Source: a virus
Strand: one strand, 5' to 3'
Length of the DNA stretch: 26,326 nt
IMG/VR virus record: IMGVR_UViG_3300044675_004833
Location: 1-26,326 of that record
Shown here: piece by piece, positions 1,748 to 25,531 of the stretch
Position numbering within the stretch: the first letter of the stretch is position 1
Layout of the letters: every line of letters starts with the position of its first letter
Position numbers and translations under genes: made by a program
Notes under the pieces: generated by a model
Seen by the model: the letters and a program-made list of their open reading frames with translations, nothing else
Database searches by the model: none
What the model was told of the DNA's origin: nothing

Positions 1748-2237
1748 TAGTAGTAGTTGGTATACACCACCATATATTTGGGATAAAGTTAATTCAACAT
1801 TAGGTGTAACTTTAGATCCATTTCCTCCTGATGGTACAGGCGGCTATGAATTAGATTGGACTGGTAATGTATATTGTAATCCGCCCATTCCTGCTAGTCG
1901 TGCGGCAATTAAAGCAATTGAGACATACGAGAATGATAAGAGTGTTAACATCATATTTGCTGGTTACAGTGAGTCTGTATGCTGGCAAGTACCTGAACTT
2001 GAAACCTATGTTCATGTTAAGTGTCGCAGCCGTATTAATTGGATAGATGGTAGAACTGAGGTTAATGGTGTTAGTAACCCCAATTATCTCCAACCAGGAC
2101 GTAATCCGGCGCATTACTCTTCTTTTTTCTTACTAAGTCAGGATACTGCGATAATTCAACGCTTCATAGACAACTTTTCTGATATGGGAGTGATTAAATA
2201 TGCGACAATATATAATCAAGGTTATAGATTGGCTTGA
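1740..2237 (+). CDS. phage Dam-like DNA N6-adenine methyltransferase
   Basis: The N-terminus (SWYTPPYIWDKV) and the order of later motifs match the phage DNA N-6-adenine methyltransferase family. DPF at residues 26-28 sits where family members have an Asp-Pro-Ala type SAM-site motif. CNPPI at 46-50 corresponds to the catalytic (D/N)PP(Y/F/W) motif. Known members transfer a methyl group from SAM to adenine N6 in duplex DNA. Here the last motif position is Ile rather than an aromatic residue, which would normally stack on the flipped adenine. Activity is therefore uncertain. The 165-residue length is typical. It overlaps the upstream gene by 8 nt. Confidence 0.65.
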   Translation: MSNSSSWYTPPYIWDKVNSTLGVTLDPFPPDGTGGYELDWTGNVYCNPPIPASRAAIKAIETYENDKSVNIIFAGYSESVCWQVPELETYVHVKCRSRINWIDGRTEVNGVSNPNYLQPGRNPAHYSSFFLLSQDTAIIQRFIDNFSDMGVIKYATIYNQGYRLA

Positions 2238-2277
2238 AGATTTAGCAACTACACCGTATTCATGCGTAATTAAATAA
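2200..2277 (+). CDS. possible 25-aa small protein
   Basis: An ATG at 2200 follows GGGAG at 2186-2190 and opens 25 codons ending in TAA. It overlaps the 3' end of the methyltransferase gene and fills the gap before the first AAA+ gene. The peptide contains WLEDLATTPYS. The ribosome binding site and fit between genes favour it, but so short an ORF can arise by chance in A+T-rich DNA. Confidence 0.3.
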   Translation: MRQYIIKVIDWLEDLATTPYSCVIK

Positions 2278-2289
2278 ATAGGAGTTTCC

Positions 2290-3447
2290 ATGTTAGATAA
2301 CTTAATCAATAAGCTCAATAATGATGGATTTATTAATGTAGATGAGTTTGCCGATACATTTATGTTGAGCGTATTAGCTGACATCCCAATCATCTATCAT
2401 GGTGAAGGTGGATATGGTAAATCAGAGATGTTAATTAGTGCATTATCTCTGTTCAATGGACGTTTCGGAATGCTTGAATGTGATCCTGAAACAACTAGTG
2501 CTGCTATTAAAGGTGGCGCAATTGCAAGAACCATTAATCAAGAAGGTGGTAGTTTAACTGAAGCGTATTACAATGTGGCTAATTCGCTACTACAGCATGA
2601 CTACTTCATGTTAGAAGAAGTATTAGATGCGAGTTTCAATGCACTTAGTTTCCTGAAGGCTGTGATTACAGGTAAGAAAATACATATTAATGGTGATGAG
2701 ATCATTAATAATTGTAAGATTCTAGTATGTGCGACTAACATTAATCCCACATCTGTAACATCTACAGTACGTGAGAATCAACGTAATAGTTGTGCTGCAT
2801 TTCTTCAGAGGTTCATGATAGTTGAACATGGTTGGAAATCTCATAATGCTGACGATTATATTGCATTATATCCATCAGTTAACGAATTACCAGTTGTTCA
2901 ATTTGAGTTAACTGACATTGATAAATGGCGTAATGATGTTAAATTAATTGAATTTAATATTGACTTATGGCGACTATTAGCTAAGTTAGCTGAAGATAGT
3001 GCTAATAGTGGTAATACTGTTAGTCCTAGAGCATTTCAATGGACAGTGCGATTAATTAAAAGTGCTGCATTATTGCGTGGGTCTAATGTAGTTGAGAGAT
3101 GTGATTTCAGAGTTATTGATTATCTAAGTTACTGGAGCGTTGATTGGGATGAAGTTGATGAAGCAATTGAGGAGATTGAATTGAGACAGGTATCTAATGA
3201 AAAGTTAGATAACTTTAGTAGTAGATTAGTTACAGCTAGACGTATGTTTAATACCTCTGTTAGTAACTATTACAACTATGCTGTATGTCACACATCAATC
3301 AGTAAATTGTATGATAAATTTTTAACTACAGTTACGTATGATGATGATACTGAAGTTAAATACAATGAAGTTAAGTTAGAATTTCGCACACTTCTAAATG
3401 AAGTTGCTATTGCACGAGATAACTTAATGGTTGCAATTGAACTATGA
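2290..3447 (+). CDS. MoxR-like AAA+ ATPase, copy 1
   Basis: This is a MoxR/CobS-type AAA+ ATPase. Walker A is GEGGYGKS at residues 38-45, Walker B is FMLEE at 106-110, sensor 1 is ILVCATN at 144-150, and a likely arginine finger lies in FLQRF at 171-175. The C-terminal half is helical. Family members form hexameric rings and remodel protein or metal-enzyme complexes, usually with a VWA partner. A TAGGAG site precedes the ATG. The stop overlaps the start of the VWA gene by 4 nt, so both are probably translated together. It aligns without gaps over at least the first 190 residues with the second ATPase at 4599. Confidence 0.9.
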   Translation: MLDNLINKLNNDGFINVDEFADTFMLSVLADIPIIYHGEGGYGKSEMLISALSLFNGRFGMLECDPETTSAAIKGGAIARTINQEGGSLTEAYYNVANSLLQHDYFMLEEVLDASFNALSFLKAVITGKKIHINGDEIINNCKILVCATNINPTSVTSTVRENQRNSCAAFLQRFMIVEHGWKSHNADDYIALYPSVNELPVVQFELTDIDKWRNDVKLIEFNIDLWRLLAKLAEDSANSGNTVSPRAFQWTVRLIKSAALLRGSNVVERCDFRVIDYLSYWSVDWDEVDEAIEEIELRQVSNEKLDNFSSRLVTARRMFNTSVSNYYNYAVCHTSISKLYDKFLTTVTYDDDTEVKYNEVKLEFRTLLNEVAIARDNLMVAIEL

Positions 3448-4589
3448 GAACTATCGCACATCTAGATGCAGTTACTCCAACTACTGATGAAATGGATGTA
3501 GTTGCTGCTAAATTCGACATTTATAACTATTGTCCTACTTTAGTTATTGATATGTTTAATATGTTAACTGGAGGTACATTAACTTCAGTTGAATATATGC
3601 AGCAACAGTGTATAGATAACATTGATTATGAAGTCAATGTTCAATCTTTCCTAGAGAAAGTACCATCATTAGCTAGTAGTTTATCGGGATCTCCATTAGA
3701 ACAAGTATTTAACATACTTGAGTTATTAGCTAATGGTGAAACTGGTGATGATAATAGTAATAGTGAATTAACATTACCAATATTCAATAATAATCATGAG
3801 GTAAGAAAAAAGGTTAAGAGTATTAAGGAAACTGTTAAATCACTGGGACGTAGATCCGCCGATGAGAAGTTACTTCTATCTGGTGAAATCAGTTATAAAT
3901 TAGCTGAGGTATTACGTGCTAGTGACACTCTTGATAAGTTAGGTATCATAGATACTAGTAATACTATGATCGCCGATTCTACTGGTGAATACTGCGAAAC
4001 TAGACCTATACGCGGATTTGATGAACTTAATCTAATCAATCCAATTGAGTTGATTAATCCAGTTAATTATCTCAGTTATCGCATCATTAATAATGAATCT
4101 CACATTATTGAACGATATCGGAAGGAGGATAAACTTTCATTTATAACGCTAATATGTGATGTTAGTGGTTCTATGCAACGTGATAACAAGATGAATAAGG
4201 CTCTTGGTATCATATTCAACATAATTAAGCGTGTCCAATCGGGCGAGTGTGAACTACTTTTTTCTTACTTTGAGAGAACTTGTTTCGATTGGTATCACGT
4301 AACTAAGGATTCAGATGTTACTAGTATCTGGAATGCTATCTATCATACATCATTTGATAAAGGGGGTACTGATGTTCAGAGGTGTATTAAAGAGGCTATT
4401 AGTAAGTCTAGAGGTGTAATATCAACTAATAAACAACTAATTGTAATTAATGATGGTCAAGATGAATGTAACTTAACTCTACCTGATTTAGATGGATTTA
4501 AGTTACATAGTTTTATATTAGATAGCAGTAATTATAACTTACAGAAGTTATCTATTGCTAGTGGTGGTACATATCGTAATCATATCTAG
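3444..4589 (+). CDS. VWA-domain (CoxE/CobT-like) protein, copy 1
   Basis: The C-terminal 150 residues form a von Willebrand A domain with a complete metal-ion-dependent adhesion site: DVSGS at 239-243, Thr309 in KGGTD, and Asp337/Asp340 in the NDGQDE segment. The N-terminal 220 residues are a helical, acidic region. In MoxR/VWA systems this protein usually binds the substrate through Mg2+ and docks on the ATPase ring. The start overlaps the ATPase stop. The protein ends in SGGTYRNHI, nearly the same ending as its paralogue (SGGTYREKI), which suggests a functional C-terminus. Confidence 0.88.
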   Translation: MRTIAHLDAVTPTTDEMDVVAAKFDIYNYCPTLVIDMFNMLTGGTLTSVEYMQQQCIDNIDYEVNVQSFLEKVPSLASSLSGSPLEQVFNILELLANGETGDDNSNSELTLPIFNNNHEVRKKVKSIKETVKSLGRRSADEKLLLSGEISYKLAEVLRASDTLDKLGIIDTSNTMIADSTGEYCETRPIRGFDELNLINPIELINPVNYLSYRIINNESHIIERYRKEDKLSFITLICDVSGSMQRDNKMNKALGIIFNIIKRVQSGECELLFSYFERTCFDWYHVTKDSDVTSIWNAIYHTSFDKGGTDVQRCIKEAISKSRGVISTNKQLIVINDGQDECNLTLPDLDGFKLHSFILDSSNYNLQKLSIASGGTYRNHI

Positions 4590-4598
4590 GAGAATCAC

Positions 4599-5774
4599 AT
4601 GACATTCAATTTAAACAACGTTTTATCTAACGCTGGATTTATTAACACCGCTACATTTGCTAACTCTATGGAATTAGCTGTTGTATCTGGTATTCCTCTT
4701 ATGTTATATGGTAAGGGAGGATACGGTAAAACTGAGATGATTAAAGCTGTATTTGACAACATTGATGGATCATCTGCAATGTTAGAGTGTGATCCTGAGA
4801 CTACAGCTAGTTTAATTAAAGGTGGTGCAATAGCTCGTACTACTAAGACTGATAAGGAAGACATTACATTAGCTCACTATAATGTAGGAGCTAGTATATT
4901 ACGTAATCATAGCTTCTTTTATGAAGAGATGTTAGATGCTAGTTTTCAAGCACTTAGCGTACTTAAAGCTATAATTACTAATAAGCAATTAACACTTAAT
5001 GGCGAAGTAGTTAAGAGTATTAATAGGTTGTTAGTTGGAGCAACTAACGTTAATCCATATGATCGCATTGAACAGCTACCTCCATCTGAAGCTAATAGTT
5101 ATGATGCGTTTCTTCAACGTTTCATTATTGTACGTCATGAATGGGATAGTCATGATAGTAGTGATTATTCTAGATTAATTCGTGCTATTAGTAATAAGAA
5201 GAATGATAATAGCAAGTTAACTATTGCTCAAATTGATGATGCTCGCATTTCTCGTGAAGAAGTTAAATTAGATAAAGAGTTACAAGGTATTCTGTGTTCT
5301 CTAGCTGAGAAATCTGGTAATGAAGGTCGTATTATTAGTCCTCGTATGTTTATGTGGACTATTAATATGATTAAGTCTCAGGCGTTACTGAGTAATAAAT
5401 CAGTTGCTACTATTGAACAACTTAATGTACTCAATTATCTTCCAAGTTGGGATCAATCACTTCTATCTAACTTAGAAGAAGAAATACAACAACAGAAGAT
5501 TTACAATGATGCTAAATCTAGTCTTGATACATTTAAGACTCACTTTGATAGAGCCGTTGATAAGATTAATGAATATAAGGCGAAAAAAGATGTTGTATCT
5601 ATATTAGCTCTAGTTAATGCACTTCAACTTATGGAGGTTGAAATTATTAACGTTAGTAATATTCCAGATAGTTTAGTTAAAGAGAGAAATGATCTTATTA
5701 ACACGGTAGGTAATCAAGCTAGAAAAACTATGAATGAAATTCCTGCATTAGCATCTGCAACAGTAACTAAGTAA
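4599..5774 (+). CDS. MoxR-like AAA+ ATPase, copy 2
   Basis: This is a paralogue of the ATPase at 2290. Walker A is GKGGYGKT at residues 38-45, Walker B is FFYEE at 106-110, sensor 1 ends at GATN 147-150, and FLQRF is at 171-175, all at the same residue numbers as copy 1. CDPETT and KGGAIART are shared blocks. The C-terminal region diverges more and contains a probable coiled coil around residues 290-350. CTAGGAGAATCAC gives a good ribosome binding site. It starts 10 nt after the first VWA gene and is followed by the second VWA gene. Confidence 0.9.
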   Translation: MTFNLNNVLSNAGFINTATFANSMELAVVSGIPLMLYGKGGYGKTEMIKAVFDNIDGSSAMLECDPETTASLIKGGAIARTTKTDKEDITLAHYNVGASILRNHSFFYEEMLDASFQALSVLKAIITNKQLTLNGEVVKSINRLLVGATNVNPYDRIEQLPPSEANSYDAFLQRFIIVRHEWDSHDSSDYSRLIRAISNKKNDNSKLTIAQIDDARISREEVKLDKELQGILCSLAEKSGNEGRIISPRMFMWTINMIKSQALLSNKSVATIEQLNVLNYLPSWDQSLLSNLEEEIQQQKIYNDAKSSLDTFKTHFDRAVDKINEYKAKKDVVSILALVNALQLMEVEIINVSNIPDSLVKERNDLINTVGNQARKTMNEIPALASATVTK

Positions 5775-5784
5775 TTAAAATTAT

Positions 5785-5805
5785 GTGGGGACGTATTATC
5801 CCCAC
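5785..5805. terminator. intergenic hairpin (GTGGGG/CCCCAC)
   Basis: GTGGGG at 5785-5790 pairs perfectly with CCCCAC at 5800-5805 around a 9-nt loop. It lies between the ATPase stop (5774) and the preferred VWA start (5813), only 7 nt away. The flank TATTACT lacks a clear T-run. It could be a weak terminator, an mRNA-stabilising stem, or a translation element. The downstream gene has no Shine-Dalgarno sequence. Confidence 0.55.
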
Positions 5806-5812
5806 TATTACT

Positions 5813-7081
5813 ATGACAATTAGAACAGAAGCAAGTAGTTATTACACTGTATTTCCAAGGGAAATACGTCAAATGACAAGTGAGATGAATGTCGCGCATT
5901 ATGATGAAGAATTAGTGACGGATCTAGCTAATATGTGGAGTGGTGGTCAATTAACTACTCTTGAACATATCAGAAGTAATACTAATTATCGCAATCTACA
6001 TACTGAGTCTAATGGTGAATATAAGTTACCTAGCGGTGGAACTGTAACCAAGCTAAGTCAGGCTCAAGATGAATGGCATAAACATGACGTAAAGGTTCAA
6101 ACTGATACTCAGGAGTTTATTAAAGAAATAATGGGTGTAGATGTTCCAGGAGATAGTCCCCTCGAACAAGCTATTAATACTATAAAGTTTCTTGATAAAG
6201 ATCAAGACATGAGTAGAGGAAGAGCTAAACAATTAGCAGTTAGTATTAAGAAGAAATTAGAAGCAGCTAAGTCAATGGATTCAGTTGACATGAAGATAAC
6301 TGGTAATAATGATGTAAATGACGTAAATCGTGCTGCTAAATTGGACAAATCCTGGACTGAGATACTACGTGTTAGTGCTGTTATGAATAAGATAGCTGCG
6401 CTTTCTACTGCACCAACTCCTACATTAATACGTAAAGTTAATGGAGATATAGTTCGTAGTCGTCCCATAACTGGATTTGATGAACTGCATAAGATACCAC
6501 CGAGAGAGTTAATACTACCTCGCAATGTACTTAATTCGCGGATCATTGAGAATGAATGTCATGTTAATGAAAGGTATGAAAAACAATCCAAGATTCCATT
6601 TGTTAACTTAATAGTTGATAATAGTGCATCTATGCGTTCTGCCAATAAGAACTATAAAGCTATGGGGATTATATATAACCTAGTTAAACGTGTTTATGCT
6701 GGCGAATGTTGGCTCAACTTCTCTTTCTTTGAGGAACATTGTCATAAATTCTACTTTCTCCCATTTGATTATGCTGATATAAGTAGTTTCTTCAATTCAG
6801 TTATTAAAAATGAGGGTTTTAATGAAGGAGGTACTGAAGTTGGTAATTGTATAGTTGAGGCATTACTTCAAGCAGATAAGATAGCTGCTGAACATCCTAA
6901 TCAAATAAGTGCTAAGGACAAACATCTTGTAGTGGTTAATGATGGTGATGATTATGCTGGTAACATAACATTGTCTATGCTTAAAGGAGCTAAATTGCAT
7001 AGTTTCATATTAGATAGTAAGAATGCGGATCTCCGTCGCATTAGTCTTCAGAGTGGTGGTACATATAGAGAGAAAATCTAG
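5813..7081 (+). CDS. VWA-domain protein, copy 2
   Basis: This is a paralogue of the VWA protein at 3444. The MIDAS is DNSAS (DxSxS), with GGTEV for the Thr and an NDGDD segment for the Asp. The ending SGGTYREKI matches copy 1. An upstream in-frame ATG at 5783 lies at the edge of a hairpin. Starting at 5813 puts the shared block MWSGGQL at residue 41, against residue 40 for the matching MLTGGTL in copy 1, so I chose 5813. No Shine-Dalgarno is visible. The copy is longer than its partner because of a Lys-rich helical insertion in the middle. Confidence 0.85.
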   Translation: MTIRTEASSYYTVFPREIRQMTSEMNVAHYDEELVTDLANMWSGGQLTTLEHIRSNTNYRNLHTESNGEYKLPSGGTVTKLSQAQDEWHKHDVKVQTDTQEFIKEIMGVDVPGDSPLEQAINTIKFLDKDQDMSRGRAKQLAVSIKKKLEAAKSMDSVDMKITGNNDVNDVNRAAKLDKSWTEILRVSAVMNKIAALSTAPTPTLIRKVNGDIVRSRPITGFDELHKIPPRELILPRNVLNSRIIENECHVNERYEKQSKIPFVNLIVDNSASMRSANKNYKAMGIIYNLVKRVYAGECWLNFSFFEEHCHKFYFLPFDYADISSFFNSVIKNEGFNEGGTEVGNCIVEALLQADKIAAEHPNQISAKDKHLVVVNDGDDYAGNITLSMLKGAKLHSFILDSKNADLRRISLQSGGTYREKI

Positions 7082-7459: not shown

Positions 7460-7541
7460 ACGACGCAAATTCAAGTCACTATTTAAACAACGTAAGAAAA
7501 AGGAATTAAAATGTCTAAACAAACAGAAATTGCTCAACTAG
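7452..7541 (+). CDS. possible 29-aa highly basic peptide
   Basis: An ATG overlapping the end of the previous gene opens 29 codons that start MSRRRKFKSLFKQRKKK. It crosses the 51-nt intergenic gap and ends inside the next gene. The basic character is partly due to a GTAAGAAAA copy at 7492-7500. No clear ribosome binding site is present. It may be only an accidental frame. Confidence 0.2.
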   Translation: MSRRRKFKSLFKQRKKKELKCLNKQKLLN

Positions 7542-8656: not shown

Positions 8657-8662
8657 AGTAGT

Positions 8663-10134: not shown

Positions 10135-10322
10135 TATTTACATCAATCAGAACCATAACTATTTTTCTTACTGAGTCAGAAGCTCTCAGGTTATTAGATA
10201 CTGGTTATGTTTATTTCTGGGGTACTTATGCTGATGTAGTATCAATAACTAAGGATTTTACATTAGATATGTATTGGGTTAAGTTAGTGTTTTTAGATGA
10301 CATTTATCCATTAGGAGAATAA
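10131..10322 (+). CDS. hypothetical protein, 63 aa
   Basis: No family recognised. It is a small acidic protein with an N-terminal hydrophobic strand and LTESEALRLLD, followed by aromatic beta-like segments. It starts in an ATGA overlap with the previous gene and ends 2 nt before the next start, which supports a real, co-translated gene. A GTAAGAAAA copy lies inside it on the - strand (10163-10171). Confidence 0.6.
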   Translation: MIFTSIRTITIFLTESEALRLLDTGYVYFWGTYADVVSITKDFTLDMYWVKLVFLDDIYPLGE

Positions 10323-10324: not shown

Positions 10325-11101
10325 ATGGTCACTTGGGTTATTGAACATGGTATATTTGATAACGAAGTTCAACTTATTGAAGAGGTAAGAAAACAAGGTC
10401 ATAATGTGATTGAGATTGATTATAAGCATGATTGCTACGTTGACGATATAGCACGTAATCAACGATATACTAAACTACTAAGTCAACCAGTTATATTCAG
10501 AGGTTCACTTAATGTAAGTAGTGAAGTGGAGTACACACTATGGATTCCTGGCACATATTGTAACCGTGATAACTTTAATTGTTCAACATATTATGCTTAC
10601 TGGGGTAAGTATATGTTGAATACCAATTACACCATGATGTCAGGATCTGAGTTAATTAGACGATGGTATGCTGATAGATTATTTGTTCGACCTGATATTG
10701 GATTCAAGGAGTTTAATGGTGGAACTTATACTAGAGATGAGTTCATTAAGTTGAATCTCCATCCTGAGTTACTAGTTATTAGTTCACCAGTTAAAAAAGT
10801 AGATTGGGAGTGGAGATTTGTAGTTACTGGTAATACTATCGTTGCAGGATCTCAATATCTGCCAATTGAAACAAATGTAACATCTAACGCAGCAATTGAA
10901 TATCTTCAATCAATATTAAATGAATTAACTTGGTGTCCAGATGATATCTATACAGTAGATGTATGTTTCGCCAATGGTAGTTATCATGTACTTGAGTTGA
11001 ACAGCCTATCATGTAGCAATTTATACCAGTGTGATTTGGCGGCTGTAGTTGAAACTGTTTCTAAATTAGCAATTAATGAGTACGATTACTGGAATGAATA
11101 A
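10325..11101 (+). CDS. ATP-grasp domain protein (DUF4343-like)
   Basis: The C-terminal half carries ATP-grasp features in order: FVRPD at residues 120-124, EWRF at 162-165, AGSQY at 174-178, DVC at 212-214, and ELN at 224-226, where the last acidic and Asn residues bind Mg-ATP. Such enzymes join a carboxylate to an amine or thiol through an acyl phosphate. Phage members of this group are known, but I know of no established substrate. The length (258 aa) is typical. TAGGAGAATA gives a strong ribosome binding site. Confidence 0.75.
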   Translation: MVTWVIEHGIFDNEVQLIEEVRKQGHNVIEIDYKHDCYVDDIARNQRYTKLLSQPVIFRGSLNVSSEVEYTLWIPGTYCNRDNFNCSTYYAYWGKYMLNTNYTMMSGSELIRRWYADRLFVRPDIGFKEFNGGTYTRDEFIKLNLHPELLVISSPVKKVDWEWRFVVTGNTIVAGSQYLPIETNVTSNAAIEYLQSILNELTWCPDDIYTVDVCFANGSYHVLELNSLSCSNLYQCDLAAVVETVSKLAINEYDYWNE

Positions 11102-11402
11102 ACTACTATATCAATTAGATAATGAATGGTATGATTTTTTAATGATGGGAATTGTTAATTATAACGGTGTTAAACATCTAGCATTATGTTTAGAACAAGA
11201 AGATGATTATCAATCCTATGTTTTCTTACCTGTAGATGATAAGTTCTTTAATAGAGAAATTGATTTATTTACAGCATTTAAGTCATGTAATTCTATGTAT
11301 TTAAGTAATTATATACCTAGTATTGATTTAGAGATAATTACAATTATAACTGGATTACCTGATAGAGATTTACCTAAACCTGGAGTGTATTATGGATTAT
11401 AG
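11094..11402 (+). CDS. hypothetical protein, about 102 aa
   Basis: No family recognised. In-frame ATGs exist at 11076 and 11094. I chose the second because it overlaps the ATP-grasp stop by only 8 nt, as other junctions here do. The protein is acidic, with QLDNEWYDFLMMG at the N-terminus and a Pro-rich C-terminus. It overlaps the next gene by 11 nt. Confidence 0.6.
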   Translation: MNKLLYQLDNEWYDFLMMGIVNYNGVKHLALCLEQEDDYQSYVFLPVDDKFFNREIDLFTAFKSCNSMYLSNYIPSIDLEIITIITGLPDRDLPKPGVYYGL

Positions 11403-11994: not shown

Positions 11995-12241
11995 AGAGCA
12001 GTATTTGAAGTATCTAGTTGAGTTAGATGAAACATCATATAACTTCCTTACTAAATTGCTATTACGTTATCCATCTCGTTACACATTAGATAAGATATGT
12101 ACCGAATGAATATTTTCGACGAGTAGGTATAAGTATAGAGAAGATTTACGGGATTATCTTCATCTAACATACGCTGATTTATTAGATGATAATGTTACAT
12201 CATCTAATGTTAGTTATCAAGACATATTAGATGCGTTATGA
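11987..12241 (+). pseudogene. ORF interrupted by one in-frame TGA
   Basis: ATG 11987 opens 40 codons (MTKEQYLKYLVELDETSY onward) to a TGA at 12107-12109. The same frame then stays open for another 43 codons to a TGA at 12239-12241 (TSRYKYREDLRDYLHL). The two halves have similar composition and together would make an 83-residue helical protein. TGA is a normal stop elsewhere in this window, so this looks like decay or readthrough, not a changed code. It overlaps the end of the - strand gene by 25 nt. Confidence 0.4.
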
Positions 12242-12570
12242 TCCCGTAGTTGAGTAATAATAACTTGAGCCTGATATAGTTTAAGTTGACATTCATCTTC
12301 AACTTTCTCTAACTCAGTTAACTTATTACGTATCTCAATCAATTCAGTACGTAATTCATCCTTATCTTTACGTATCTGAGTTATTTCATCATTTATTAAT
12401 ACTTGAATACGATTACGCTCTTGAGTTATATAGTCGTATTCACGTTGAGATAGTTTATCACCATTATTGTTACGGGTAAGAAAATAAGTGCCGATTCCCG
12501 TAACAGCAGCAGATAGGATAGGCGCAAGATCACTTATAATTTTGGAGAAATCAATCGTGGCTAATAACAT
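12217..12570 (-). CDS. small membrane protein with coiled coil (spanin-like architecture)
   Basis: This is the only convincing - strand gene. Starting at the ATG at 12570-12568 it gives 117 residues. One hydrophobic helix at about 10-30 (IISDLAPILSAAVTGIGTYF) is followed by a long Glu/Lys/Leu/Ile-rich coiled coil up to residue 110. An N-terminal anchor plus periplasmic coiled coil is the architecture of inner-membrane spanins and of several phage membrane proteins, but no partner or lysis cassette is visible. No strong ribosome binding site is seen. Its start overlaps the GTG of the + gene by 14 nt, and a longer start is less likely. Confidence 0.55.
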   Translation of the reverse strand: MLLATIDFSKIISDLAPILSAAVTGIGTYFLTRNNNGDKLSQREYDYITQERNRIQVLINDEITQIRKDKDELRTELIEIRNKLTELEKVEDECQLKLYQAQVIITQLRDHNASNMS

Positions 12571-12952
12571 AGAAAATTCATTGGTTGAGTTGGGATTGGA
12601 TGATGAAACTAGAAAAAAGATAGCAGCCTTAATAGCAGGTGTTCCTAAACGTCGTAAAACAGGTATCCTCAAGTATGCTGAGTCATGTGGTACTGACATT
12701 AAGAGTAAGTTTGAATTAATACTAGCAGCAATACTCACATTATATCCTGAAGTTATGAATGCTTCAACACGTATAGTTGATGAGTTTAAGGAACTTAATT
12801 ATACTAATGTTGAGTTATTGAAGTTAATTAGTAGTTTAGTTGATTGGAAAACTAAAGGTGAATCACTTGCATTAGTTGTAAATCAATTAACTGATGTTCC
12901 AGTTGCAGAAGATGTAGTAGAAGATGTAGATGATTTATTAGACATAGAGTAA
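12557..12952 (+). CDS. hypothetical protein, about 131 aa, GTG start
   Basis: No family recognised. GTG at 12557 is preceded by GGAG at 12544-12547. An upstream ATG at 12488 would overlap the divergent gene deeply. It is helical, with an Ala/Leu-rich middle segment (LAAILTLYPEV) and an acidic tail (AEDVVEDVDDLLDIE), which resembles tails that bind basic or AAA+ partners. A hairpin/terminator follows the stop. Confidence 0.6.
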   Translation: MANNIENSLVELGLDDETRKKIAALIAGVPKRRKTGILKYAESCGTDIKSKFELILAAILTLYPEVMNASTRIVDEFKELNYTNVELLKLISSLVDWKTKGESLALVVNQLTDVPVAEDVVEDVDDLLDIE

Positions 12953-15268: not shown

Positions 15269-15543
15269 TAACTAAAAAAGATATTAGAGATTGGATGATT
15301 GAACATAATGTATATGGTGAAAATATTGAGGAAATAGATAATAGATTAACTTACGCTCAAATAAATCGTTACATTGTTAGATCAATATCTGCTGATTTTT
15401 CTGATTTAGAAGACAATGAGGTAAGAAAATTAGAAAATGACTTTGATAGACATTTTGAAGATGTAGGGTCGCATATATATAATGAGTTACCTGATACTAA
15501 TGAACCTCAATTAAATTACCTTGACATACTGGAGAAACTCTAA
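15265..15543 (+). CDS. hypothetical protein, tandem paralogue 2
   Basis: This is the second copy of the pair. It has TKKDIRDWMI, RSIS, a longer acidic middle and the ending NYLDILEKL. It is 9 residues longer than copy 1 because of an insertion in the middle. A GTAAGAAAA copy at 15421-15429 falls inside that more variable middle. No catalytic motif was seen. Confidence 0.65.
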   Translation: MITKKDIRDWMIEHNVYGENIEEIDNRLTYAQINRYIVRSISADFSDLEDNEVRKLENDFDRHFEDVGSHIYNELPDTNEPQLNYLDILEKL

Positions 15544-15756: not shown

Positions 15757-16587
15757 ATGGCTTTAATATTACCAAGAACAAGTACAGTTGCAGCTAATAC
15801 AGATCCACGTATTTTAGTGTTACTAAGTAATACCAAAATAGGTAAGTCGTCAAATTTACTTAAATTACCTAATAGTCTACTTATTGACCTAGAAGATGGT
15901 AGTGAATATTATGATGGTACTAAACTTAACTTACGCAAAGAAGCTGCTACTAGCGGTACTGGTTTAGGTTCATTATTAGAAGAAACAGCTAAGTTAATTA
16001 AAGCTGAAAACGTTAAAGCTGGTAAACCCATATATGATTACATTGCACTTGATACATTAACTGCAATTGAAGCACTTGCTCTTGCTAAGGCTACATTCGA
16101 GTATAAGAAGTCGCCTATTGGTAAGAACTTCACTGGAAAGGATGTAACTGAGTTACCTAAAGGTGCTGGTTATGGTCTACTTAGACGGGCATTTATTGAC
16201 ATCGTTGAACCATTTAAAGGTTTAGCAGGTAAAGCTCTTATTCTCAGTGGTCACATTAAAGTAACGTCTGATGAGAAAACAGAGTTAGATGTGAAGGATA
16301 TTCAGTTAACAGGAAGTCTTAAATTATACACAGTAGCTAACGCCGATGCTATTGGGTATATGTATCGTAGTAAGAAAAATAAGAATCAGAATATAATTAG
16401 TTTTCTTACTGATGAATCTAATATTGCTACTGGTGCTAGAAGTGAACATTTACGTAATAGTGAATTTGTGATTAGTGAATTAGATCCAACAACTAAAGAG
16501 TTAACTGTACATTGGGATAAGATATTCACATCATTAGGTAGTAATCCATTACCAGTTGTACCTGCAACTAAGAAGATTCCTGTATGA
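15757..16587 (+). CDS. Sak4-like RecA-fold ATPase (single-strand annealing)
   Basis: The fold order fits phage Sak4-type proteins. Walker A is SNTKIGKS at residues 24-31 (the first Gly is replaced by Ser), then LLIDLEDGSEY at 41-51, and Walker B is YDYIALDT at 93-100. LSGHIK and a later TGS loop follow, as in Sak4. Sak4 proteins are RecA-related and promote single-strand annealing with a phage SSB. An SSB and a PD-(D/E)XK exonuclease lie about 5-6 kb downstream in the same orientation. The 276-residue length is slightly above the usual 230-260, with a Pro/Val-rich tail. Confidence 0.75.
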   Translation: MALILPRTSTVAANTDPRILVLLSNTKIGKSSNLLKLPNSLLIDLEDGSEYYDGTKLNLRKEAATSGTGLGSLLEETAKLIKAENVKAGKPIYDYIALDTLTAIEALALAKATFEYKKSPIGKNFTGKDVTELPKGAGYGLLRRAFIDIVEPFKGLAGKALILSGHIKVTSDEKTELDVKDIQLTGSLKLYTVANADAIGYMYRSKKNKNQNIISFLTDESNIATGARSEHLRNSEFVISELDPTTKELTVHWDKIFTSLGSNPLPVVPATKKIPV

Positions 16588-16862: not shown

Positions 16863-17054
16863 ATGATGATTAACAATAAACGCGTGTTAATTAAGTTTGG
16901 AAGTTGTCCAAATGATAATAGATATTACAATCAATCTCGTCTTTGTAACATTCGTCATAGAATCAGACAACAAACTAAGCGACAATTAAAAGATATAGCT
17001 GATAATTATTCAATAAATCGTAGTTGGGATAACTTTATTCAACCAATATGCTAG
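16863..17054 (+). CDS. small basic protein, 63 aa
   Basis: No family recognised. It is strongly basic (RHRIRQQTKRQLK, residues about 31-43) and may bind nucleic acid. Two consecutive Met codons start it, with no ribosome binding site. It overlaps the RNA ligase start by 7 nt. It is the first gene after an intrinsic terminator. Confidence 0.55.
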   Translation: MMINNKRVLIKFGSCPNDNRYYNQSRLCNIRHRIRQQTKRQLKDIADNYSINRSWDNFIQPIC

Positions 17055-18124
17055 TACAAGAATATCTCCGAACTAAGTCATTAAAAGACTTAACCGCCGA
17101 ATTAGGAATACAAGTTAGACGACATACTAAATATCCTAATCTAGTTGGATTATGTTATTGGAATGTTACATCACCCTATTATCATCCAATAGTAACTGAA
17201 TGTCGCGGATTAATATTAGATGAAGCTAATGATTGGAATGTTGTAGCATATCCATTTGATAGATTCTATAACTATGGTGAATCATGTGCAGCAGAAATAG
17301 ACTTCGATAACTCTTATGCTTATAAGAAGTTAGATGGCAGTCTAATCATTATGTATTACTACAATGATGAATGGTTAGTTGCAACTACTGGATCTCCTGA
17401 TGCTGGTGGAACTATACTTGATTATAGTGTTACATTTGCTGAACTTGCATGGACTGTATTTATGCAAGAATCATATAAATTAGATGACTTTGATGTTAAC
17501 TATACGTATATGTTTGAGTTATGTACACCATTTAATCCAGTAGTTGTATCACATAGTAGTAACTCATTAACTTTAATTGGAGTTAGAAATAGAACTACAT
17601 TACGTGAGGAGTCGATAGCACAACCTAAGTTCACTTCGTTTAAGTTAGTTGACTATCTTGAATATGGTTTAACTATAGATGAAGTTAGAGATGAGTTAGT
17701 TAAGTTAGATGGATTACATAATGAAGGTTATGTAATAGTAGAATGGTGTACTTGGAAACGAGTTAAATTAAAACACGATGATTATGTTAAATATCATAGG
17801 ATTAAATCAAGCGTTACCAAACGTGACATATTAGAGTTAGTTAGAACAGGTGAAGGTAATGAGTTTATCAGTTACTTCCATGAATTTAATAGCATCTACA
17901 ATAACTACTTAACTAAATACAATAAGTTATGTGAGTTAATTGAACATGATTTAAATGAGTTCGCTAAAATCACCGATAAGAAACAGTTTGCAATAGCTAT
18001 CTCTAACATCAAATGGAAAGTTATCCTATTCTCAATTAGAGATGGTCATAGTAAGTCAGTTAAAGAAGCACTATCTAAGTTGTTGTTAAAGAATTTTGAG
18101 ACGTTGATGGAATTATGCAAGTAA
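17048..18124 (+). CDS. rnlA: T4 RNA ligase 1 family enzyme
   Basis: This is an ATP-dependent RNA ligase of the T4 Rnl1 type, which seals cleaved tRNA after anticodon nuclease attack. The adenylation motif is KLDG at residues 94-97 (Lys94 is the nucleotidyl acceptor). ECRGLILDE at 51-59 holds the conserved Arg. YMFELCTPFNPVVV at 154-167 is motif III/IIIa, EGYVI at 226-230 is motif IV, and VKLKHDDY at 239-246 is motif V. The C-terminal 100 residues are helical, as in the Rnl1 specificity domain. The 358-residue length is close to the T4 enzyme (374). It overlaps the kinase gene downstream by 10 nt. Confidence 0.93.
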   Translation: MLVQEYLRTKSLKDLTAELGIQVRRHTKYPNLVGLCYWNVTSPYYHPIVTECRGLILDEANDWNVVAYPFDRFYNYGESCAAEIDFDNSYAYKKLDGSLIIMYYYNDEWLVATTGSPDAGGTILDYSVTFAELAWTVFMQESYKLDDFDVNYTYMFELCTPFNPVVVSHSSNSLTLIGVRNRTTLREESIAQPKFTSFKLVDYLEYGLTIDEVRDELVKLDGLHNEGYVIVEWCTWKRVKLKHDDYVKYHRIKSSVTKRDILELVRTGEGNEFISYFHEFNSIYNNYLTKYNKLCELIEHDLNEFAKITDKKQFAIAISNIKWKVILFSIRDGHSKSVKEALSKLLLKNFETLMELCK

Positions 18125-18963
18125 TTATGACAGTTGGCTTACCTGGATCTGGTAAAACTACATACGCTATACAATTAGTTACCGATGTACCTGGATGGAA
18201 GCGTATTAATAAAGACGATATTCGCACCATGATGGACAACGGCGTATACAGTAAGAAAAATGAGAAGTTTGTTATTCAATGTGAGGAATTACTAATACTA
18301 GAGGCACTTAGTAATGGGTATAATGTGATACTTGATAATACGCACCTTTGTCCAAAGCATAAGACTAGAATTGCCGCATTAATTGAAGGTAAAGCTGAAT
18401 TAATCATCAATGATAGTTTTCTTACCGTTCCTTTATCTGAGTGCATTAAACGTGATCTAACTCGAACTAACTCAGTAGGTGAAGCTGTTATTCGTGGTAT
18501 GTACGATAAATATCTGTATGTTGATCCTCCTAGTGCAGCTAGAATAGAAGGTCTTCCAGATTGCGTCATAATTGACCTTGACGGTACTCTAAGTCTACTT
18601 AATGGTCGTAATCCCTATGATGCTAGTACGTGCGAGGATGACCTACTTAATGAACCAGTCTATGAATTATATAAGTCGTATTATCCAAGTAAGAAAATAG
18701 TATTAGTATCAGGACGTAAGGATACTTGGAAAGATCAGACTATTAGTTGGTTAGATAAACATAACATTAGATATGATGCGTTGTATATGCGTGCTGAACT
18801 TGATCAACGTAAGGATAGTGTAGTTAAACAGGAGATATATGAAGCGTATATCAAGAATGTTTATAATGTTCATGCTGTAATTGATGATAGACCACAGGTA
18901 TTAAGAATGTGGCGGGATAATGGACTATTCACTATTAACGTAGGACATGGAGTTAATTTCTAA
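18115..18963 (+). CDS. pseT: polynucleotide kinase / 3'-phosphatase (T4 Pnkp family)
   Basis: The N-terminal kinase has GLPGSGKT at residues 8-15 (Walker A) and a downstream DNTH motif, and it phosphorylates 5'-OH ends. The C-terminal HAD-type phosphatase has DLDGT at 154-158 with Asp154 and Asp156, LVSGR at 197-201, and DDRPQVLRMWR at 257-267, and it removes 3' phosphates and cyclic phosphates. All motifs are intact and the 282-residue length is near the T4 301. With RNA ligase immediately upstream it forms the repair pair that heals and seals cut tRNA. Confidence 0.95.
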   Translation: MQVIMTVGLPGSGKTTYAIQLVTDVPGWKRINKDDIRTMMDNGVYSKKNEKFVIQCEELLILEALSNGYNVILDNTHLCPKHKTRIAALIEGKAELIINDSFLTVPLSECIKRDLTRTNSVGEAVIRGMYDKYLYVDPPSAARIEGLPDCVIIDLDGTLSLLNGRNPYDASTCEDDLLNEPVYELYKSYYPSKKIVLVSGRKDTWKDQTISWLDKHNIRYDALYMRAELDQRKDSVVKQEIYEAYIKNVYNVHAVIDDRPQVLRMWRDNGLFTINVGHGVNF

Positions 18964-19344: not shown

Positions 19345-19357
19345 GTTACTAAATATC

Positions 19358-19378: not shown

Positions 19379-19428
19379 AGTTAATTGCGCGAACATTATT
19401 GAATTAACTAGTGTAATAGGTGAAACAC

Positions 19429-19629: not shown

Positions 19630-19879
19630 TGAAAACAGAATTAAATTTAATCAAGATTTAGCATTACAGTTACTTGAATCTGAAGTAGAATTTCCAATTG
19701 ATTTTGAAGATGCTTGGACATGGTTATCATGATATGATAAATCTACAGGTAAAAGAGCATTACTAAATTGTGGTTTTGTGGAGGAATTAGACTTCCACAT
19801 TTCTGCGGAGGCGACAACCACAGGCATTTCAGCCATTCCAAGGAGTCTATTTTTCTTACTAGTCTCACATTTACATTAA
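19616..19879 (+). pseudogene. antirepressor-like (AntA/AntB-type) remnant, split by TGA and truncated
   Basis: ATG 19616 reads 38 codons (ending DFEDAWTWLS) to a TGA at 19730-19732. The same frame stays open to a TAA at 19877-19879 (RALLNCGFVEELDFHISAE, then TTTGISAIPR). Across the stop this resembles the N-terminal domain of AntA/AntB-type antirepressors (WLGY..K..A...L, then FVEGVDF). The family region after ISAIP should continue through a helical block, but the frame here ends in a hydrophobic tail (SLFFLLVSHLHLH). So it has both an internal stop and a lost C-terminus. A GTAAGAAAA copy (19851-19859, - strand) lies exactly at the point where similarity ends. It is probably a degraded gene. 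The next gene may be its functional relative. Confidence 0.5.
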
Positions 19880-19894
19880 TTAGGAATTAAACAA

Positions 19895-20695: not shown

Positions 20696-20698
20696 ATT

Positions 20699-21047: not shown

Positions 21048-21467
21048 ATGGCTTATCAATTTTATCTATCTGGTACTGAATCTACAATTGCTGGACGTTT
21101 AGTAGCAGATATTGTTATTGAGACTAAAGGTGAGAAGCGTACTGCAAAGATTAAGATTGCAGCTAACGCAGGAAGTAAGAAAAATGAAGCGGGTGATTAT
21201 GAGAACATTGTAGATTTTTATGATCTCACAATCTGGGATAACGGTGGCGCATCTACTGAGTTTCTAGATGCTATTGAGAAACCACCATCTGAGAAGTTAG
21301 TATTCAAGAAGGGTAATAATGTTGTATTCCATGGCATGATTACTAATGGAGTACGCGAATATGAAGGTAAAGCATATAAAGATACTAAGGTTAATCACTT
21401 CTTTCATCTAGCTAAAGTAATGCCTAATGTAGCTAAACAACAAGAAGATGTTAGTGGTGGTTATTAA
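21048..21467 (+). CDS. ssb: single-stranded DNA-binding protein
   Basis: It is a phage SSB with an OB-fold pattern: strands LVADIVIETK, AKIKIAAN, VDFYDLTIW, and NNVVFHGMITNGVREYEG. The 139-residue length fits small phage SSBs. The acidic C-terminal tail of host SSB (DDxPF) is absent, and it ends QQEDVSGGY. It would coat ssDNA and hand it to the Sak4-like annealing ATPase. The 91-nt leader suggests its own promoter. It shares one base with the next start. Confidence 0.75.
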   Translation: MAYQFYLSGTESTIAGRLVADIVIETKGEKRTAKIKIAANAGSKKNEAGDYENIVDFYDLTIWDNGGASTEFLDAIEKPPSEKLVFKKGNNVVFHGMITNGVREYEGKAYKDTKVNHFFHLAKVMPNVAKQQEDVSGGY

Positions 21468-21805: not shown

Positions 21806-21811
21806 TGTGAT

Positions 21812-21848
21812 ATATTAGTCTTATATTTAATATGTATAAGACTAATAT
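21812..21848. promoter_or_regulatory. perfect 14-bp hairpin around the exonuclease start codon
   Basis: ATATTAGTCTTATA (21812-21825) pairs perfectly with TATAAGACTAATAT (21835-21848) around a 9-nt loop. The loop contains the ATG at 21832-21834, and the second in-frame ATG (21847) overlaps the right end of the stem. No Shine-Dalgarno precedes either. The stem is long enough to hide or present the start codon, or to be an operator for a dimeric DNA-binding protein. Confidence 0.6.
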
Positions 21849-22644
21849 GTTAACTCAAATAAATGATGAAGTAGAAGGTCGTTCATATCAATTAGATGGA
21901 ACAACTAAGAAATTTAAATCAGTTACTACATTAATTAACTACGCTAAACCTAAAGAGGGATTACTTAAATGGCGTGCTAGTGTAGGTGAAGCTGAAGCTA
22001 ATAAAATAACACAGACTGCTGCAACTCGTGGTACTGAGGTACATAAATTAATCGAGGATTATTATAAGAGTAAGAAAACAAGCGTAACTCAAACAAGTGA
22101 TGATGTATTCTTCAATAAGTTTCTACCTGTACTTGATCTCATAACTCCCATAGCTGTTGAAGAGAAGACATATTGGGTAGATGAAGCTACTGGACGTGGA
22201 TTTGCTGGTACATACGATATGTGCGGCAATGTAGATACCACTAAGTTCATTGGTAGAGATAGTGGGGTTATTACTTCATCTAATTCAGTGGCGGACTGGA
22301 AAAACTGGAATAGAGCTAAATATCCAGTTGCACAAACTAAAGATGGTGGTAAGTATTATCCTCTAATTGGGTACTACTTACAATTATCTGCTTATTGTGC
22401 TGCTATAAATCAACGTACTAATTGCATTCATGAAGTAAGTAACGCATATATTATTGGAGTTACTGAAACTTGCAGATCACCATTTATCTATTATCTTAAT
22501 GATGATGCTGTAATGTTCTATTGGGATAAAATGAAGAACTTAGTTAATTGCTACTATAATAATGCTAAGTTCGATTGGGAACAAATGGAAACTGAAGCTG
22601 AACGATATGGGTTTCTAGGAGAACGAGTAGATTTAGTTAAATAG
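21832..22644 (+). CDS. PD-(D/E)XK nuclease, RecB/Cas4-type exonuclease
   Basis: The motifs of a RecB-like nuclease are present: RGTEVH at residues 66-71, Glu at 110-111, GFAGTYDM at 123-130 with Asp129, VADWKNW at 153-159 (the D-x-K pair 155-157), and QLSAY at 184-188. Such enzymes degrade DNA ends in recombination with an SSB and an annealing protein. The SSB lies upstream and a Sak4-like ATPase is about 6 kb away. The length of 270 fits. The start may be the ATG at 21832 or that at 21847, both in the hairpin. Confidence 0.8.
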   Translation: MYKTNMLTQINDEVEGRSYQLDGTTKKFKSVTTLINYAKPKEGLLKWRASVGEAEANKITQTAATRGTEVHKLIEDYYKSKKTSVTQTSDDVFFNKFLPVLDLITPIAVEEKTYWVDEATGRGFAGTYDMCGNVDTTKFIGRDSGVITSSNSVADWKNWNRAKYPVAQTKDGGKYYPLIGYYLQLSAYCAAINQRTNCIHEVSNAYIIGVTETCRSPFIYYLNDDAVMFYWDKMKNLVNCYYNNAKFDWEQMETEAERYGFLGERVDLVK

Positions 22645-22654
22645 GAATAGTAAC

Positions 22655-22960: not shown

Positions 22961-22961
22961 C

Positions 22962-23429: not shown

Positions 23430-23431
23430 TT

Positions 23432-24112
23432 ATGCAAGTTTACAATGCAATAGTATTACGTAATTTACCTGAATGTCGAGGTGAAGATGTAGATTACTCA
23501 TTCTATCCTGGAGATAAAGTAATATTAACCATTGAAGATAATGGTGTTATGTGGATTAATGAGATAGGACATAATCCCGCAACTAGTATTGAAGTAGATG
23601 AAGATAATGTAGCTTACTTTAAAAGTGATAACTTATTTGAGTTATTAGAAAGACGAGTTAATTACGATCTACAACATGATTTAGATGGAGTAGATAAATA
23701 TCTAAATGATTTAGCTAGTGTAATCAAATCACATAGAACTACAGTTAAGTTAACTAGAGATAAGTTAAATAAAATAACTGATGATGAAGTAACTGTAATT
23801 AAAGATAAGTTAGATAGTGCGTTTAATTTAACGTGGTTTACTGAAAATAATGAACTTAATTGTATTCAATTTAAAACTTCATTCAAATCTATAAATTTAC
23901 GAATTTATCATTTTCATGATAATCGTAAATTCATACTATATATTAATTCAATGTCTGATATTGATGACGAAATAGGAAATACAATTGACAGTTGTGTATC
24001 TACCGATTTAGATGAAGTAATAAACCACATCTCTACTTTTTTCTTACGTCTAAAAGATTCCGTTAATTATTTAGAGGTTAATAATGCAGCTATTCATACC
24101 ATCGCGGATTAA
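23432..24112 (+). CDS. hypothetical protein, 226 aa
   Basis: No family recognised. The N-terminus may be a small barrel (DYSFYPGDKVILTIEDNG). The middle is helical with charged repeats, and the C-terminus has alternating strands. The downstream gene overlaps by 29 nt, with its ribosome binding site inside this gene. Confidence 0.6.
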   Translation: MQVYNAIVLRNLPECRGEDVDYSFYPGDKVILTIEDNGVMWINEIGHNPATSIEVDEDNVAYFKSDNLFELLERRVNYDLQHDLDGVDKYLNDLASVIKSHRTTVKLTRDKLNKITDDEVTVIKDKLDSAFNLTWFTENNELNCIQFKTSFKSINLRIYHFHDNRKFILYINSMSDIDDEIGNTIDSCVSTDLDEVINHISTFFLRLKDSVNYLEVNNAAIHTIAD

Positions 24113-25094
24113 AGTTGGATTTCAAGTTAGAAGTGAATGTTTCACTAAGCAATTAGCTTATATCATCTACTATGATGCTACTGGTAAGTTACGCAAAGAG
24201 AAGTCATTTAATGGTTGGATAGATACGACTATCCCTACATTAGAGTTAGATAATACTCCTCGATCTGGTTTCATTCTAAATAAGGATGTAACTAGAGATA
24301 GTTGGTCACACTATTCAAGTGGTAGATCAATGATTCGAGTATACGATGATAGAGGATTTGAATTTGAGATAACACCATCTAATCTACTATTCATATTAAT
24401 GAATACTAACTGCAATAAGCGAGAGTTAGAAGGTGAATTTATCTATGCTTGGGATGGTAAGGAATTAGTATTACTACCAGCTAACTGTGAAGAATATAAA
24501 GCTGCCAATCAATTCACATCTCTTCAAGGTAAGAAAATAAGTGTGCGGGATTTAGTACCTGGATGTATCTATCAAACTAAAAAGCAAGTTAACTTAACTT
24601 ATCTTGGTAAGTATGATTGGTATGATTACAACTGGTGTGATTCTAGTTATGACTTAGTTAAGAGATATGTGTTTATTGATGATAATAATAAGTTAGTTCC
24701 TCTAACTGGATTAACTAGTTTATCAGTTAGGTTAAGTGAGTTACCTGTAGATAACTATGTTGACTTACTAGAGATAATGAACTGTAGTAAAAACATATCT
24801 CTTATAAGTCATGTATCTCTAACTCAATTAACTCCTACTAATGATAAACGTTATGTATATAAAGAGATTAATGGTCATATCTATGGTTATTATCTACAGG
24901 GTTATCTTCCATTAATTTCAGATTACGTTGTGTTAAGTTACTGTAAGTTAATTACAGTTAGTAACAATGCAGTTAACACAACTGAAGTTAGTTGTCATGA
25001 TAAATACATAACAGTAACTAAAGATGATTTATTAATGAACTATTCTGATTTAGTAGTTCATTTAGTTAACGGTAAACAATACATTCAAGGATAG
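24084..25094 (+). CDS. conserved phage protein of unknown function, 336 aa
   Basis: The sequence IPSRIKVGFQ...LAYIIYYDATGKLRKEKS and the later block RGFEFEITPSNLLFILMN, then YAWDGKELVLLPAN, match a protein I have seen in many large phages without a known function. It looks like a compact alpha/beta fold. GAGG at about 24073 precedes the start. The C-terminal 120 residues diverge more. It is followed in one operon by the coiled-coil protein. Confidence 0.7.
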   Translation: MQLFIPSRIKVGFQVRSECFTKQLAYIIYYDATGKLRKEKSFNGWIDTTIPTLELDNTPRSGFILNKDVTRDSWSHYSSGRSMIRVYDDRGFEFEITPSNLLFILMNTNCNKRELEGEFIYAWDGKELVLLPANCEEYKAANQFTSLQGKKISVRDLVPGCIYQTKKQVNLTYLGKYDWYDYNWCDSSYDLVKRYVFIDDNNKLVPLTGLTSLSVRLSELPVDNYVDLLEIMNCSKNISLISHVSLTQLTPTNDKRYVYKEINGHIYGYYLQGYLPLISDYVVLSYCKLITVSNNAVNTTEVSCHDKYITVTKDDLLMNYSDLVVHLVNGKQYIQG

Positions 25095-25102
25095 TGAAAC
25101 AT

Positions 25103-25531
25103 ATGTCTGATATTAAAGTTCAAGAATTACTCGATATCGTAAATAAGAAGAAAGCTGAAATCGCGGCACTTGAAGTTAAACCTAATTGGGTTACTAATTG
25201 TGCATTTAAATGGTTTGTTGATGCTAATGCTATTGTTAATATTCAAACTGCAAATGAACAACAAATACTAGACATACTTGTTTTCTTACTTAATAAAGAA
25301 GTTATGCACACTAGAGCAACTGAAATATTAGGTTTAGATAATAAGTTTACTTATCTAGGTTACACATTAAATGAATGGACAATTGATCTTAAAACTAGAT
25401 TAAGTAGATTAAGTATCAGTACGAAGAAGAGTGAGTTGGCTACATTAGAGAAACGTCTAAATAACTTAATGAGTGCGGATCTTAAAACTCAATTAGAGTT
25501 AGATGAGATAACTAAGTTACTTAATAATTAA
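25103..25531 (+). CDS. coiled-coil protein, about 142 aa
   Basis: No family recognised. I chose ATG 25103 over GTG 25094, since GTG shares its base with the previous stop. Two helical segments at the N- and C-termini (LLDIVNKKKAEIAAL and LATLEKRLNNLMSADLKTQ) look like a pair of coiled coils around a more compact middle. The gene ends before a perfect palindrome and could be a scaffold or adaptor. Confidence 0.6.
   Translation: MSDIKVQELLDIVNKKKAEIAALEVKPNWVTNCAFKWFVDANAIVNIQTANEQQILDILVFLLNKEVMHTRATEILGLDNKFTYLGYTLNEWTIDLKTRLSRLSISTKKSELATLEKRLNNLMSADLKTQLELDEITKLLNN

Follow-up and report, generated by a model that had tools for sequence, protein, structure and literature searches.

What function does a nine-letter word serve when it recurs on both strands throughout a phage genome, and what reads it? 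The question is raised by the IMG/VR virus record IMGVR_UViG_3300044675_004833, positions 1 to 26,326 (26,326 nucleotides; hereafter the window), in which the word GTAAGAAAA is present in 22 exact copies, 12 on the plus strand and 10 on the minus strand. The first copy begins at position 2125 and the last ends at 25289, with gaps of 31 to 3232 bp between sites. Our recount agrees with an earlier note on this DNA, which had given the same number and extent and a spacing of 31 bp to 3.2 kb, and the long open reading frames (ORFs) of the window lie almost all on the plus strand, as that note had remarked. A third-order Markov count of all 9-mers, proposed there as a check, gives an expectation of 0.26 for GTAAGAAAA (z 42.8) and places it first in the window. 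The runners-up are overlapping pieces of the word itself (TAAGAAAAA, AGTAAGAAA, and GGTAAGAAA) or an A/G run (AGAAAAAAG, n = 5); no unrelated 9-mer, A-rich or other, approaches its count, and the reversed word (read backwards), which served as a control, has 0 copies in the window.

The window is a fragment of a phage genome of at least 111.6 kb. Five relatives were obtained by gene search in IMG/VR, the largest being G004 (IMGVR_UViG_3300042396_000450, 111,623 bp), whose aligned blocks are 98.5–99.6% identical to the window. The earlier note had named near absence of the word from the rest of the genome as one outcome that would speak against a signal; G004 contains 87 copies (42 plus, 45 minus; 780 per Mb) versus 1.3 expected under the third-order model and 1 copy of the reversed word. 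The other four relatives (G001, G002, G003, and G005) carry 18, 14, 49, and 17 copies, a shorter near relative of G004 (G014) carries 50, and a more diverged member (G015; blocks 77–95% identical to G004 over part L047) carries 9 + 13. A search with the capsid protein placed 36 of 65 loci, G004 included, in this close group, each with at least two copies; because the contigs of the group are near-identical, the 36 loci do not count as independent. None of the 28 distant loci holds more than 1 copy, and 1 copy is present in an 8.8-kb locus of 73% capsid identity.

The word is strict. The commonest of its 27 one-mismatch forms in G004 has 9 copies (1.6 expected), versus 87 for the exact word, and the flanks show weak preferences, with V preceding and H-W-R-R following GTAAGAAAA. 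No avoidance of off-site AGAAAA was seen beyond composition (0.88 of expected); for off-site GTAAGA the figure in G004 is low, at 0.48.

Three spellings of the word are built around the same AGAAAA core, each in a lineage of its own. Besides GTAAGAAAA, these are GTT-AGAAAA (GTTAGAAAA; 46 copies in 86 kb) and C-AGAAAA (108–134 copies per genome versus 44–48 expected in four phages). The second spelling came from a search that did not use the word: an alignment of primases, searched against IMG/VR, led to a third lineage, represented by G408 (86,345 bp), in which GTTAGAAAA ranks first among 9-mers with 25 + 21 copies (reversed control, 0 + 0). CAGAAAA is the most enriched 7-mer of the isolates Pam2 and PA-SR01 (132 and 133 copies versus ∼46, equal on the strands), and two IMG/VR relatives (146 and 148 kb) have 108 and 134 copies versus 44 and 48 expected; the conserved CAGAAAA sites follow the consensus KRC-AGAAAA-RRRAD. 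The bases before AGAAAA are GTA in 87 of 141 cases in G004 and GTT in 46 of 159 in G408, where the second letter varies more (GATAGAAAA 15, GGTAGAAAA 7). The spellings scarcely overlap between lineages: copies of GTAAGAAAA, GTTAGAAAA, and CAGAAAA number 87, 4, and 7 in G004, 0, 46, and 11 in G408, and 3, 2, and 132 in Pam2, and PA-SR01 has 2 copies of GTAAGAAAA. A further set of 63 loci comprised terminase relatives of at least 8 kb and known members, with the four best words listed for the first 22 kb of every locus; by our sorting, 44 of them fall outside the three groups, and none of these 44 lists an AGAAAA word.

Coding does not account for any of the spellings. Synonymous-codon shuffles of the G004 ORFs yield 9.6 copies of GTAAGAAAA (maximum 18 in 200) versus 76 seen in genes, and codon bias and protein repeats were rejected as the cause on this basis. 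Shuffles yield 5.7 copies of GTTAGAAAA in G408 (maximum 12 in 200) versus 37 seen, and for CAGAAAA 50.6 in Pam2 (maximum 65 in 60) versus 122 and 45.3 in G006 (maximum 62) versus 100. The orientation of the sites is also independent of the genes, with 44 sites with, 31 against, and 12 outside genes in G004 and 19, 18, and 9 in G408. The earlier note had dismissed codon bias, protein repeats, and a strand-specific promoter, and the shuffles and orientations support that dismissal. One of its arguments needs correction, namely that all reading frames are used: on the coding strand of G004 only two frames hold the word (28 and 15 copies; ORFs of at least 60 amino acids), and in the third GTAAGAAAA would read as a TAA stop. 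All three opposite-strand frames are used (14, 10, and 6 copies), and 14 copies fall outside these ORFs.

The sites are also conserved beyond what their composition predicts. Between G006 and Pam2, 53 of 70 CAGAAAA sites are intact, versus 142 of 524 permuted words of the same composition (27%). The corresponding figures are 52/73 versus 138/505 from G006 to G007, 52/71 versus 148/494 from G006 to PA-SR01, 51/68 versus 183/460 from Pam2 to PA-SR01 and 51/84 versus 178/481 in the reverse direction, and 65/98 versus 211/624 from Pam2 to G007 and 64/96 versus 218/613 in reverse. For GTAAGAAAA, G015 and G004 were compared in both directions, with seven of seven sites intact each time (controls, 4/9 and 1/5). 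Sites and controls with flanks more than 97% identical or with fewer than 60 aligned flank bases were omitted, and the same genomes enter several of the comparisons, which are not independent of each other. The word is thus a strict, genome-wide element with lineage-specific spellings that is kept by selection. The earlier view of it as a genome-wide DNA signal is borne out by its spread, its selective conservation, the shuffles, and an orientation untied to genes; mimicry of a host signal, which was also suggested, is not supported by the cyanobacterial genomes sampled, as discussed below, and priming was absent from the functions listed.

How the word is read is suggested by the spacing of its sites. 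Orientations alternate more than expected, both in the window (19 runs versus 11.9, P = 0.002) and in G004 (60 runs versus 44.4). Rotating the sites of one G004 strand against those of the other reproduces the alternation (mean 57.9 runs, P = 0.36), and pairing or alternation was rejected as a separate feature, the excess of runs being accounted for by independent regularity on each strand. The plus sites of G004 have a mean gap of 2640 bp and a coefficient of variation (CV) of 0.52, which none of 5000 random sets reached, and the minus sites have a mean gap of 2492 bp and a CV of 0.69 (P = 0.007 versus random). When the strand labels are shuffled on fixed positions, the per-strand CV rises to 0.808 from the 0.606 seen (P = 0.00065). 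Because label shuffling destroys the regularity, each strand of G004 is spaced independently and the word looks as if it were read from single strands, that is, apparently per strand.

We propose, and give it about an even chance, that the word marks the start sites for RNA primers of the phage's own DnaG/T7-type primase; the primase as reader, the strand read, and the primer sequence are the parts that we infer. The template-strand site would be 5′-TTTTCTTAC-3′, with the zinc ribbon of the primase reading its 3′ part (TAC) and the catalytic domain initiating at the CTT triplet, opposite its T, and the primer would begin 5′-AGAAAA. Related phages would alter the letters read by the zinc ribbon, to CTA-AC in one lineage and CTG in another, and since the AGAAAA core is kept, the primer start would be the same. 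On the template strand, the spellings read TTTTCTTAC (TTTT-CTT-AC), TTTTCTAAC (TTTT-CTA-AC), and TTTTCTG (TTTT-CTG); they carry the d(CTN) triplets CTT, CTA, and CTG, and therefore a primer begun on any of them would open with AG. The start triplets of bacterial primases are d(CTG), d(CTA), d(TTA), and d(CCC); the primers are purine-first, and the zinc domain affects specificity, according to the accessible part of PMC5204125.

The sites would lie on both strands at about the spacing of Okazaki fragments. In the portion of PMC12839067 available, fragments of phage T7 average ∼3 kb with a range of ∼1–6 kb, and the mean site spacing of 2.5–2.6 kb in G004 (2.64 and 2.49 kb on the two strands) falls within this range. 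The sites of the T7 gene 4 primase (5′-(G/T)2GTC-3′ plus 3′ flank) are among the closest likenesses in that they are strand-specific, genome-wide, and read by a phage TOPRIM primase with a zinc domain. T7 primase uses a limited subset of its sites, and bases 3′ of the core triplet matter (same source, in part). Unlike the many core triplets in loose context of T7, the present word has nine strict, over-represented letters, equal use of both strands, and lineage spellings. A long (8-nucleotide) template word for a phage priming enzyme is described for NrS-1, 5′-TTTGGTTA-3′ (PMC8718748, seen in part); that enzyme is a primase-polymerase of the archaeo-eukaryotic primase (AEP) type that also primes at GTG, whereas the primase discussed here has a T7/DnaG fold.

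A homologue of T7/DnaG-type primases with a zinc ribbon is encoded in all three groups, and its fold was modeled for one. In G004, the gene (L017:16624-17457) lies ∼0.4 kb beyond the extrapolated position of the right end of the window, which diverges from G004 after 25842. The four zinc-ribbon cysteines are invariant in a 6-sequence alignment and the TOPRIM residues in a 23-sequence alignment. Searches of PDB sequences and Pfam with the G004 protein gave nothing useful, and an initial structure model had a predicted local distance difference test score (pLDDT) of 52. The model built from the 23-sequence alignment has a mean pLDDT of 72, with ∼90 over residues 101–180 and 81–91 on to residue 260. 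It superposes with the T7 primase fragment (PDB code 1nui) at Z 14.3 and 2.6 Å over 155 residues and with DnaG domains at Z 8.7 to 13.3; all six Foldseek matches with E of 0.001 or less are DnaG-type primases, with low query TM-scores of 0.35–0.41. An AEP-type primase-polymerase, the initial guess for this enzyme, was dropped in view of the T7/DnaG-like fold. A viral scan with the primase of the GTTAGAAAA phage matched only itself. The DNA-handling genes common to G004, the Pam2-like phages, and G408 are those for terminase, primase, helicase, RuvC, and exonuclease, the exonucleases of G004 and Pam2 being linked through that of G408. The replicative polymerase was rejected as a reader, as it is common to Pam2 and G408 with no match seen in G004.

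Several observations weigh against priming. The chief difficulty is the equal use of both strands: the two orientations are equally common, and because a simple origin gives one lagging template per region, recombination-dependent or multi-origin replication would be needed. Sak4-like, SSB-like, exonuclease, and RuvC proteins are among the products of the phage, a set that is no more than compatible with such replication. We know of no precedent among TOPRIM primases for a strict 9-letter site, and the primase model is poor over the zinc ribbon, where pLDDT is below 60. Two spellings have a purine-rich tail that the third lacks. The association of word and primase does not single out the primase, since the word-bearing lineages also share capsid, portal, terminase, RuvC, and exonuclease. 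Moreover, of the 36 loci found by primase homology, 25 are at least 9 kb long (G004's own excluded), and 19 of these contain none of the three words and six contain one. Lastly, the label shuffle is significant for spacing in G004 only. It gives P = 0.08 for G408 (pattern G[ATG]TAGAAAA) and, for sites kept by two or more of three relatives, P = 0.054 in G006 and P = 0.16 in Pam2. In G014, per-strand spacing has P = 0.15 and 0.11 and runs P = 0.16, with P = 0.006 for the spacing of all sites pooled. Unfiltered CAGAAAA sets of the Pam2 group are mostly irregular, one PA-SR01 set being regular (minus strand P = 0.0008, runs P = 0.0017). Outside G004, per-strand regularity is only a trend.

If the primase reads the word, replication starts would be legible from sequence, and the specificity of the primase would have co-evolved with the genome. 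Even for T7, it is an open question how a primase selects its few active sites out of hundreds of short triplets (PMC12839067, as far as its text was available); here, the genome itself would display the priming sites, in three natural spellings, and the isolates Pam2 and PA-SR01 are among the phages concerned. The wider statement, that this phage family wrote its primer starts into the genome as a strict word with even per-strand spacing, one that drifts between lineages while the first primer letters stay, falls just short of an even bet in our judgment. A strict, selectively kept, and per-strand-spaced word is unusual in a phage family even if the primase is not its reader. A literature search, which left subscription papers mostly outside, found no description of the word, and the available text of one PA-SR01 paper and of the Pam2 paper mentions no such motif.

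The rival explanations depend in part on the host, which is likely a cyanobacterium to judge from protein matches. A 1033-amino acid protein of unassigned function in G004 (L016:8096-11197) matches 13 phage records, 12 from Nodularia, Planktothrix, or Aphanizomenon and one with an unstated host, and for the capsid the best-ranked isolates (26% identity) are Pam2 and PA-SR01, both phages of Pseudanabaena. Other G004 genes encode terminase, tape measure, B12-type ribonucleotide reductase, and polymerase. In 386 cyanobacterial genomes, an even draw from a larger group, GTAAGAAAA reaches ∼53 per Mb at its densest, with counts near those of the reversed control, although the host may lie outside the sample; GTTAGAAAA is likewise without marked enrichment in 194 cyanobacterial genomes. 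Where a genome has at least 30 copies, the excess over the reversed control is at most about twofold.

These counts bear on a Chi-like signal for recombination or exonuclease control, at which a helicase-nuclease or a phage exonuclease would be stopped or reloaded on one strand. Per-strand spacing and the use of both orientations suit such a signal as well as they suit priming, RuvC is encoded in all three groups, and so is an exonuclease of one family (window 21832–22644 and t3_246 match phrog_298, and t3_246 matches the Pam2 protein). Enrichment in the host would be expected of a Chi word, and therefore the lack of marked enrichment in the sampled cyanobacteria weighs against it, as far as the host is among them. 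Within the phages, a UvrD-type helicase domain (PF00580) was seen in one of six (G007, a short match) and PDDEXK_1 (PF12705) in none of six, although an enzyme of the host might do the reading. We know of no Chi recognition by a solo exonuclease. In addition, recBCD is patchy among cyanobacteria and missing from Anabaena sp. 90, according to the part of PMC5101192 that was accessible. We regard a Chi-like signal as unlikely, although it survives best among the alternatives to priming.

Slightly less likely are dispersed binding sites of a protein that recognizes duplex DNA, be it a repressor with stoperators, a partition protein, or a genome-organizing protein. The model for these are the stoperators of Cluster A mycobacteriophages, which are likewise short, asymmetric, and dispersed, with related spellings in related phages (PMC6550527, in the part available); a related helix-turn-helix (HTH) regulator is encoded by G004 and Pam2. 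Stoperators, however, are oriented with transcription and number 20–30 per genome, in contrast to 87 sites in 111.6 kb in both orientations. The HTH regulator and the antirepressors were rejected as readers because their genes are missing from the set in common with the GTTAGAAAA lineage, which is represented by an 86-kb contig that may be incomplete, and PA-SR01, which carries CAGAAAA, is described as lytic in the accessible text of PMC7431792. The near absence of one-mismatch forms in G004 would be unusual for a regulator, yet the second letter in G408 is looser, as given above. A duplex binder also gives no reason for per-strand spacing.

A modification or restriction word, marked or spared by a phage methyltransferase or nuclease, is quite improbable. 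Targets of type III or IIG enzymes are strict and asymmetric like the present word, and the window ORF at 1740–2237 matches phage DNA methyltransferases (phrog_111, E 6e-6), but the genes in common with the other two groups include no homologue of this one, phages usually lose rather than gain restriction words, and even per-strand spacing would not be predicted. A host-derived word acquired by mimicry, as the earlier note had also considered, is the least probable of all: cyanophages can carry host-type words, since Aphanizomenon phage CL131 (MG209611.1; L198, L199) bears 157 host-type HIP1 octamers in 92 kb, but the iterated genome-wide words that GTAAGAAAA resembles (Chi, DNA uptake sequences, and HIP1) are words of host genomes, the cyanobacterial counts above show no such enrichment within their sample, as an uptake sequence would call for in a naturally competent host, and the likeness drawn to HIP1 breaks down because HIP1 is a palindrome (GCGATCGC, 0 copies in G004) and GTAAGAAAA is none.

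The individual sites of the window are all exact matches, and 19 of the 22 are intact in G004. On the plus strand, these are 2672–2680, 3801–3809, 7492–7500 (between ORFs), 10385–10393, 12476–12484 (immediately upstream of the ORF at 12488 and within the opposite-strand ORF 12217–12738), 16370–16378, 18251–18259, 21175–21183, 22070–22078, and 24529–24537. Those on the minus strand are 2125–2133, 4260–4268, 10163–10171, 13807–13815, 16401–16409 (31 bp from the plus site at 16370–16378), 18417–18425, 19851–19859 (between ORFs), 24039–24047, and 25281–25289. The three altered sites are 11221–11229 (minus), whose G004 version is one base shorter, 15421–15429 (plus), where the G004 region differs by indels, and 18689–18697 (plus), which has one substitution in G004.

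Other features of the window and of the related phages were noted in passing. Two tandem pairs of an AAA/MoxR-like ATPase and a VWA-like partner occupy window positions 2290–7081 (2290–3447 with 3444–4589, and 4599–5774 with 5783–7081); the first ATPase (2290–3447) has weak AAA_lid_8 and phage-ATPase matches, and the second copy and the VWA assignment were read by eye. An RNA repair set at 17048–18963 and 25569–26036 comprises a T4-type RNA ligase, a PNKP kinase-phosphatase, and a Thg1-like tRNA guanylyltransferase, the last having 155 amino acids in the window versus 242 in G004. Four diverged paralogues of one phage (window 19895–20695, L015:5130-5948, L016:470-1324, and L017:3711-4562; 18–24% identity to the first) are taken for antirepressor-like proteins, an identity that no search gave; a scan of genome contigs with an antirepressor-like protein returned nothing useful. 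Two Pam2 genes (ON014754.1, 2064–3905, in the head-gene region, and 57601–58398) bear neurotoxin names in the public record, which look like an annotation artefact.

The palindromes GAATTC, ATGCAT, ACATGT, and TTCGAA have 0 copies each in G004 (L014–L019), versus 38 expected from base composition and 10–29 under a higher-order model, as if restriction sites were avoided. Further iterated words occur in other contigs. The palindrome ATTCTAGAAT has 8 copies in the 48 kb of G410 (L264–L266), where GATGTCAATA is found 1/10, mostly on one strand, and CCTTGCAAG has 15 copies (8/7) in the 14 kb of L316 versus 0.5 expected. In G411–G414 (L302, L299, L307, and L292), TKAGAAAGG occurs 5 to 14 times per contig, along one strand and then the other; it might be a promoter-type element and is of a different kind from the GTAAGAAAA family.

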